Source of the DNA: a virus
Reading direction: 5' to 3' (one strand)
Length of the DNA: 25,035 bases
IMG/VR virus record: IMGVR_UViG_3300034198_006942
Span: 1-25,035 of that record
The notes under the pieces are model-generated. The model saw only the letters and a program-made list of their open reading frames with translations. It did not search any database and was not told the DNA's origin. Of the stretch, positions 6,978-15,927 are shown piece after piece; within the stretch, counting starts at the first letter, position 1, and the number at the start of each line of letters is the position of its first letter. A program made the position numbers and the translations under genes.

Positions 6978-7142
6978 GAAGTACAAGAGACACGTAAACC
7001 AAAAGCATGGCGTAATGGCAGATACATTTACTGCATGACCCACGGTCAGACGCAGTGCTACGACATTGAACTCGTCTACGGAGATAACCCTTTGCTAGAG
7101 GGTGGACGTAAGTGCGATTGGTGTAAGGCGAAACTGAAGTGA
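6975..7142 (+). CDS. Small zinc-ribbon-type protein, 55 aa
   Basis: Start fixed by promoter copy 11. Residues 19-28 hold two cysteines (YCMTHGQTQC) and residues 47-50 hold CDWC, an arrangement typical of a small zinc ribbon. Basic at both ends. The following gene begins with GTG inside its TGA. No specific family recognised. Confidence 0.65.
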   Translation: MEVQETRKPKAWRNGRYIYCMTHGQTQCYDIELVYGDNPLLEGGRKCDWCKAKLK

Positions 7143-7399
7143 CCACAGAGTTTGAAGCCTTTGAGAACCTAGTCAAGTCCCTGCATGACCATCCCACCAA
7201 CAGGGATAAGAGACATGGTCAGATGTACTTCAAGGTTCTTAGTGAGATACGCCCCGCTATTGCAGAAGTAATCACGGGAACCATGTTTGACCCGTTCTAC
7301 AAAGACGAGATACATCCAAGTACGTCAGAGATTGTACAGCGCTACTGGCACTTCCCTCAAGATGAAGTGCTTGGCGACTTTGTAGGGAAAAGTGAATAA
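7139..7399 (+). CDS. Hypothetical protein, 86 aa
   Basis: GTG start overlapping the previous stop (GTGA). Acidic, mostly helical sequence (FEAFENLVKSLHDHP, FKVLSEIRPAIAEVITG, PSTSEIVQRYWHF) without cysteines, unlike its neighbours. No motif recognised. It is the last gene before the origin-like intergenic region. Confidence 0.7.
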   Translation: MTTEFEAFENLVKSLHDHPTNRDKRHGQMYFKVLSEIRPAIAEVITGTMFDPFYKDEIHPSTSEIVQRYWHFPQDEVLGDFVGKSE

Positions 7400-7524: not shown

Positions 7525-7533
7525 TGTGGATAA
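7525..7533 (-). other. DnaA box (TTATCCACA on minus strand)
   Basis: Exact match to the consensus DnaA-binding 9-mer. A chance 9-mer, but its place beside a parS site in a non-coding stretch makes it notable. Confidence 0.55.
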
Positions 7534-7565
7534 CTTTGTGCGATTGTGAATGTTAGGCATGCCTA

Positions 7566-7583
7566 ATGTTTCACGTGAAACAT
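7566..7583. other. parS: parS-type palindrome
   Basis: An 18-bp perfect palindrome whose central 16 bp, TGTTTCACGTGAAACA (7567-7582), equals the chromosomal parS consensus bound by ParB in Actinobacteria and Bacillus. No parA or parB gene is visible in the window, so host ParB or a phage ParB encoded elsewhere would be the partner. Confidence 0.85.
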
Positions 7584-7608: not shown

Positions 7609-7616
7609 TCGGCAGG

Positions 7617-7654
7617 TTGTCTCTGTCCCTAATAAGCCATACAGTGATGTCATG
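7617..7654 (+). promoter_or_regulatory. Leaderless promoter repeat A, copy 12
   Basis: -35 TTGTCT (7617-7622), 17-bp spacer with CCCTAATAAGCCA, -10 TACAGT (7640-7645), six bases GATGTC, ATG at 7652. Confidence 0.85.
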
Positions 7655-7867
7655 AAGGAAATGAAGACCCAAATAGAAGAAGTCGCAAGACTTGCCGAAG
7701 AACTCAAAGAGGCTCTCAAAGGGCTCACGGGCCCGAGCGGTCGGATGACGACCTACTGGAACGGAAAGCCTGCCGACTGGCCAGCGAACTTGCCGTGGAG
7801 CGACGAAGCGGTCGCCCGAGCCAGCAACGCTCTCGGGTCGCTGACGCTGGAAGAGGAGGATGAGTGA
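7652..7867 (+). CDS. Small hypothetical protein with N-terminal coiled coil, 71 aa
   Basis: Start fixed by promoter copy 12. Residues 1-26 (MKTQIEEVARLAEELKEALKGL) form an amphipathic helix or short coiled coil. Then comes a Gly/Pro linker, a Trp-rich WNGKPADWPANLPW, and an acidic end. GTGA overlap with the next gene. It lies just after the parS region, but nothing in it resembles ParB or a ParB-like helix-turn-helix. Confidence 0.65.
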   Translation: MKEMKTQIEEVARLAEELKEALKGLTGPSGRMTTYWNGKPADWPANLPWSDEAVARASNALGSLTLEEEDE

Positions 7868-8237: not shown

Positions 8238-8257
8238 GGCGTGTGACGAGAGCCACG

Positions 8258-8295
8258 TTGTGATTACCCCTAATAAGCCATACATTGGAGTCATG
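8258..8295 (+). promoter_or_regulatory. Leaderless promoter repeat A, copy 13
   Basis: -35 TTGTGA (8258-8263), 17-bp spacer with CCCTAATAAGCCA, -10 TACATT (8281-8286), six bases GGAGTC, ATG at 8293. Confidence 0.85.
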
Positions 8296-15585: not shown

Positions 15586-15927
15586 ATGGAACAGGGGGCA
15601 TTCGCACCTGAAGGTGGGGCATGTGTAGGAAAACCAACCGAGTGGTGGTTTCCATTACAGAAGACTGGTCGCAAAGAAGAAGTAGACGAACTTCGCAAGA
15701 ACACAGCGCAAGCAAAGATTGTTTGTTCAGGTTGTTCAGTATCTAGAGAATGTCTTGAATACTCACTTGAGTGGGAACCTTGGGGTATTTGGGGCGGCAT
15801 GGAAGAGCAAGAACGTGCACATCTTCGTTGGAGTCGTAAGTTACGTTTACATCGTGATGGTCGTATTGTTTTTAGAGGCGTCGGTATGCGTGATGCAAAT
15901 GGTGATGTATTCGCCGGCCGGAACTGA
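15586..15927 (+). CDS. whiB: WhiB-family Fe-S transcription regulator, 113 aa
   Basis: WhiB-like proteins are Actinobacteria- and actinophage-specific [4Fe-4S] regulators that bind the primary sigma factor. Four Cys are present: Cys13, then C-x-x-C at 47-50 and Cys56 (CSGCSVSREC), followed by GIWGG (67-71) and a basic C-terminus (WSRKLRLHRDGR) as DNA contact. The ATG has a GAGGAGG site eight bases upstream. This gene is the best evidence for an actinobacterial host. It is a candidate regulator of the repeated leaderless promoters, since WhiB proteins act at sigma-A promoters. A TCGCCGGC octamer overlaps its 3' end (15911-15918). Confidence 0.93.
   Translation: MEQGAFAPEGGACVGKPTEWWFPLQKTGRKEEVDELRKNTAQAKIVCSGCSVSRECLEYSLEWEPWGIWGGMEEQERAHLRWSRKLRLHRDGRIVFRGVGMRDANGDVFAGRN

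Follow-up and report, generated by a model that had tools for sequence, protein, structure and literature searches.

A host-type parS beside a putative early promoter in a clade of actinobacterial phages, and its occurrence in other phages

The phage DNA analysed here (the whole of an IMG/VR record of 25,035 bases, classed as linear and probably a fragment; 'the window') carries an 18-bp perfect palindrome, ATGTTTCACGTGAAACAT, that by its sequence is a chromosomal-type parS and not a chance match. For a parS that is exact, conserved and of host type, binding by host ParB is by far the simplest reading, and we consider it very probable that host ParB binds the site in some role. The actual use of such centromere-type sites at a promoter is less certain than their binding; in our judgement, the chance that parS serves mainly for promoter control here is just short of even. 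We propose, more tentatively, that this clade runs early promoters interchangeably on DnaA or ParB through one slot, so sensing the replication or origin state of the host, and that host-matched centromere sites are widespread and essentially undescribed in phages, including those with ssDNA genomes. The relevant features of the window are as follows.

7525-7533, + strand: perfect DnaA box TGTGGATAA, without a second copy in the window; the TTAGGCATGCCTAA palindrome lies 19 bp downstream
7553-7566, no strand assigned: second perfect palindrome, TTAGGCATGCCTAA, abutting the parS core; exact copy unique in the window
7566-7583, no strand assigned: parS, 18-bp perfect palindrome ATGTTTCACGTGAAACAT, exact match, kept in relatives
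7615-7645, + strand: copy of a repeated promoter-like element, with -35-like GGTTGTC and -10-like TACAGT, the start codon following 6 nt on
7652-7867, + strand: ORF of 71 aa, family A, downstream of the parS-bearing promoter-like element
15586-15927, + strand: WhiB-like regulator (Pfam PF02467, E 8.6e-15), a mark of an actinobacterial host

The parS site and the phages that carry it

The 16-bp core, TGTTTCACGTGAAACA (7567-7582), agrees with the chromosomal-type parS consensus at 16 of 16 positions, and one extra base per side extends it to the 18-bp palindrome. It is the single match in the window, even when three mismatches are allowed. The site is non-coding: it falls in the gap between the ORFs at 7139-7399 and 7652-7867 and outside every ORF of 60 aa or more that our script listed. 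The first-pass annotation had described a perfect, non-coding parS of chromosomal type within an 18-bp palindrome, and that description holds.

Relatives counted as close had a helicase identity of at least 76% and a record reaching at least 6.8 kb upstream of the helicase. parS was kept in 13 of these 15 relatives, a count that is raw with respect to shared descent: L122, L124 and L209 are near-identical around the site, as are L130 and L140. A scan that tolerated up to two mismatches anywhere returned only copies with none or one; the half-sites TGTTTC and GAAACA were invariant and each mismatch lay within the central four bases. The site is kept while most of the flanking DNA fails to align, and most genomes of the clade have a single parS. 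Distant relatives (58-65% helicase identity) had no parS, even in records of 60-138 kb. All relatives are metagenomic fragments on which genes were called mechanically.

The WhiB family is a marker of Actinobacteria. As the window and each of the 13 related records tested (14 of 14) encode a WhiB-like protein, we take the hosts to be Actinobacteria. The window also encodes an SNF2-type helicase, a primase/helicase, an SSB and many small ORFs. INPHARED contained no near-identical phage, the closest helicases being only ~33% identical, and a search of bacterial genome contigs for the host yielded no more than a few phage-like contigs that were misbinned or distant.

No ParA or ParB gene had been noticed in the window at first pass, and profile searches of this linear fragment confirmed it. 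TIGR00180 (ParB) gave nothing above cut-off in the window, itself a fragment, or in the related records, and ParA (PF13614) was found in none of 17 records comprising the window and relatives. Among 14 records, of which several are fragments, none had a tyrosine integrase (PF00589) or serine recombinase (PF00239) match; the related records used in the ParA, integrase and recombinase searches were of up to 132 kb. The only ParB-fold proteins, of ~270 aa, were in two large relatives (L184 and L185), where they scored below the family cut-off and aligned with the ParB model over its N-terminal half only. Their gene adjoins a PAPS-reductase-like gene; we read the two as a candidate IbrB/IbrA-like pair. 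With only such partial matches and no canonical ParB, a phage-owned ParB was rejected for these records. An autonomous phage ParABS, as in phage-plasmid partition, is not supported either, parA and parB not being found in the records tested. The first-pass annotation had suggested that the phage may use host ParB, for segregation as a phage-plasmid, for positioning near the host origin or as a decoy. Recruitment of host ParB remains the best general reading, whereas the phage-plasmid mode lacks support: the window and the tested relatives yielded neither ParA nor a tyrosine integrase or serine recombinase.

A composite site upstream of small genes

When the loci were aligned on parS, the abutting dyad, the promoter-like element and the distance from parS to GTTG were conserved; the rest was not. 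These elements, like the DnaA boxes of sister promoters and the parS of many unrelated cultured phages described below, had not been noted at first pass. The dyad TTAGGCATGCCTAA lies 0-1 bp from parS in the window and in eight of the 13 relative loci that have parS. When IMG/VR was scanned for the TTAGGCATGCCTAA-parS composite, seven contigs came up, all from this clade; six were known relatives and the one extra contig also had a family A gene. Beside parS in another lineage is a dyad of the TTACTTGTA-N-TGTGCAAGTAA type, such as those like TTACTTGTATTGTGCAAGTAA in L130, L133, L137 and L139.

The promoter-like element consists of GGTTGT, a -10-like hexamer and then an ATG ~6 nt downstream. About 15 near-identical copies (GGTTGT...CCTAATAAGCCATACATTGAAGTCATG) precede small ORFs between 600 and 13000 of the window, for example at 7615-7652 and 8255-8293. 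Given this spacing, the element is probably a promoter that yields leaderless transcripts. Within one phage the sequence separating -35 from -10 is uniform, but between related phages it varies, as if it were read by a phage-specific regulator. Between genes, TTTCCGCCACCG is repeated (487, 2627, 7454 and 10753 of the window, + strand; 46 copies in 280 kb of relatives), and these repeats are perhaps transcript ends.

As in promoters that answer to a host regulator, the site stands at a conserved spacing from the -35-like element. parS is 11-12, 22-24 or 32-33 bp upstream of the promoter GTTG at all sites but one, the exception being the second parS of L130/L140, which is inside the downstream reading frame. 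The spacings have a vector strength of 0.90 at a 10.5-bp period, but with the three distance classes counted as the independent events p is only ~0.05.

The family A protein has no match in Pfam or PHROGs, and AlphaFold2 gave it a low-confidence model with two helices (mean pLDDT 62). Nearly every family A gene is linked to parS, and parS precedes at least three unrelated families of small genes (A, C and D).

DnaA boxes occur in the same setting. The box in the window (7525-7533) is 32 bp upstream of the parS 18-mer. There were 58 perfect boxes in 275 kb of parS-bearing loci compared with ~2 for letter permutations of the box, a mean that is slightly too high if the permutations include the DnaA box itself. 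Near these promoters, the ends of the boxes are mostly 15-17 or 27-29 bp upstream of GTTG. In L122, L129, L133, L135 and L137 they are often paired, with a 12-bp spacing, at a fixed distance upstream of the promoters. The same gene families can have either kind of site: families A and C, which follow parS in some genomes, follow a DnaA box in L127 (A) and DnaA boxes in L129 and L142 (C). In L133 a parS lies between the divergent promoters of A and C. A distant sister clade is largely without both DnaA boxes and parS. As a general partner of phage parS, the DnaA box was not supported: 120 unrelated parS-bearing loci had 19 boxes versus ~8 when permuted (maximum 20).

Chromosomal parS in phages at large

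A survey of phages for the 16-mer, as the first-pass annotation had proposed for actinophages, found exact copies in 286 of 50,697 phage records, from actinophages and from many unrelated phages. A matched control palindrome of the same composition, TGTCTTACGTAAGACA, was present in 0 of the 50,697. The 18-mer was found in at least 120 stretches of IMG/VR and a control 18-mer in none. Because the matched control palindromes are absent, parS in phages is not attributable to chance. The carriers include phages of Listeria, Microbacterium, Arthrobacter, Gordonia, Bacillus, Lactobacillus, Ruegeria, Vibrio and Butyrivibrio, some of the Listeria records resembling short metagenomic fragments that may hold host DNA; ssDNA micro- and inoviruses are also among carriers of the 16-mer. 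Cultured phages with the same site are Gordonia phage Woes, Arthrobacter phage Nubia, Bacillus phages B103 and Goe1, and Listeria phage P100. Mycobacterium hosts share the chromosomal parS type of the window, and Mycobacterium phages are absent among the carriers listed.

Phage genomes typically have one parS and sometimes 2-6, in coding as well as non-coding DNA and in unrelated phages. A crude gene caller placed 58 of 138 IMG/VR sites in non-coding DNA, on contigs that are 92% coding, and 69% of the non-coding sites were no more than 60 bp upstream of a gene start, versus 48% of random non-coding positions. Sites inside genes were seen in the Listeria P100-like, Microbacterium and phi29-like Bacillus groups.

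Several arrangements stand apart. In Gordonia phage Woes there are two parS (L187:2563-2614 and L187:2990-3030), each centred in a longer inverted repeat; the arms of the two repeats differ. The inovirus bajarodino virus 69 (L192) has four parS in a 5.7-kb genome stretch, and Glutamicibacter phage Voltaire has two that are 19 bp apart (L190:2983-3017). In Vibrio phage phi 3, parS (L193:2934-2949) is between the pre-early genes A1 and A2, inside the terminal repeat; by analogy with T5, this region is probably the first DNA injected.

A Pseudomonas-type parS, TGTTCCACGTGGAACA, was found in 58 phage records of INPHARED, of which 17, the largest group, were Pseudomonas phages, and this suggests that the type of parS in a phage is matched to its host. 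An exception is provided by 10 Klebsiella phage records with the Pseudomonas-type site, at least some copies being inside genes; Klebsiella hosts are not known to have a chromosomal ParB. A Streptococcus-type parS was not found in any Streptococcus phage, the only matches being four chance-like ones in Sulfolobus viruses. For chromosomal parS in phages at large, the open-access literature returned nothing direct, which is weak evidence of absence. Judged from these surveys, the borrowing of host ParB looks like a common phage habit on which we found almost no literature.

Possible roles of host ParB and known systems

The site, its conservation, the composite, the linkage to a promoter and the interchange with DnaA boxes can be read directly from the DNA. 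From them we infer the binding of ParB and a regulation, including its direction, that might proceed as follows. Incoming or replicating phage DNA would nucleate host ParB-CTP at parS. There, ParB would adjoin the second operator, TTAGGCATGCCTAA, on a fixed helix face relative to the promoter ~33 bp downstream and, bound at or spreading from parS, could control transcription of the family A gene (7652-7867). Because sister promoters carry DnaA sites in the equivalent slot, this phage group appears to tie its small early genes to the two origin-binding proteins of its host, ParB and DnaA; through this coupling, the genes may follow host replication state or proximity to the origin.

Three features favour promoter control for this clade: the spacing to the promoter, the dyad next to parS and the way in which DnaA boxes can take the place of parS. 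Such control is not proposed as the general use in phages, because parS is inside genes in other phage groups; positioning, SMC loading or titration of ParB may be more general. Host ParB might load at parS and spread, with host ParA and/or SMC-ScpAB then holding, compacting, segregating or placing the phage genome near the origin or pole, and the location at a promoter being incidental. This is the known function of parS and would suit a site that occurs once or a few times per genome, within genes or between them, across unrelated phages; there are precedents in phi29 DNA, which is entrapped in spores via Spo0J/ParB by the account in PMC9437464 (citing Meijer 2005), and in SGI1, which partitions itself with parS mimics (PMC10954446). 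However, these records give no sign of a latent replicon, with integrase, ParA and canonical ParB not found in them, and positioning does not predict a fixed promoter spacing, an abutting operator or DnaA-box exchange; as the main function here we regard it as rather unlikely.

A sink for ParB is a poorer prospect. Here, replicating copies would draw host ParB and condensin away from the chromosome by titration and stall segregation or division, possibly with help from the small protein. Phage copy number would be a natural amplifier, the parS mimics of SGI1 together with the small protein Sci destabilise a helper plasmid (PMC10954446), and family A is linked to parS almost throughout; but a sink would profit from many sites, where most genomes here have one, and it needs no promoter phasing. 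The promoter context and the second dyad resemble ordinary operators, so a parS-identical operator bound by a phage-encoded or another host regulator can also be envisaged. We think this more doubtful still: the identity to parS over 16 bp, with variation only at the centre, and the host-matched parS types in unrelated phages speak against it, as does the failure to find a canonical ParB in these records. Chance, or recent capture of host oriC DNA, has only the identity to the host consensus in its favour and is contradicted by the conservation of parS in relatives, where the site persists though its flanks fail to align. The first-pass annotation had called a chance 16-mer extremely unlikely, rightly on these figures: ~6e-6 copies are expected per window, and 286 phage records carry the 16-mer with none carrying the control. 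We consider this last explanation highly improbable.

If host ParB does bind, phages of many hosts would be tapping the chromosome segregation machinery, and a role of ParB/SMC in phage DNA location, gene timing and host takeover becomes testable. A phage group that exchanges DnaA boxes and parS at the same promoters would have a novel means of following the cell cycle of its host.

Among known systems, extrachromosomal mycobacterial prophages are likewise actinophages with a parS; they reportedly carry parABS, with their own ParA and ParB and a cognate parS, whereas neither protein was found here. The 16-bp palindrome of the window is identical to the chromosomal parS, TGTTNCACGTGAAACA, of the ParABS systems of Bacillus subtilis and Corynebacterium glutamicum (PMC7022226), but is on a phage, near a phage promoter rather than oriC, and parA and parB were not found with it. 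In CtrA-controlled phages of Alphaproteobacteria, promoters have sites for a host cell-cycle regulator (PMC9437464); here, ParB and DnaA are the predicted binders, in actinobacterial hosts. The phi29 genome, as portrayed in PMC9437464, exploits host ParB and, via Spo0A sites, a host regulator; unlike that case, no sporulation is known here, and the site accompanies a second dyad and DnaA boxes within a promoter of leaderless type. SGI1 carries mimics of the parS of IncC plasmids, together with Sci, a small protein (PMC10954446), and is similar in being a mobile element with the parS of another replicon beside a small-protein gene and a ParB that is not its own. The window also has a foreign parS with ParAB not found; it is a fragment, and the larger relatives agree. 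The difference is in the partner: SGI1 borrows the ParB of a plasmid, whereas the phage site matches the ParB of the host chromosome.
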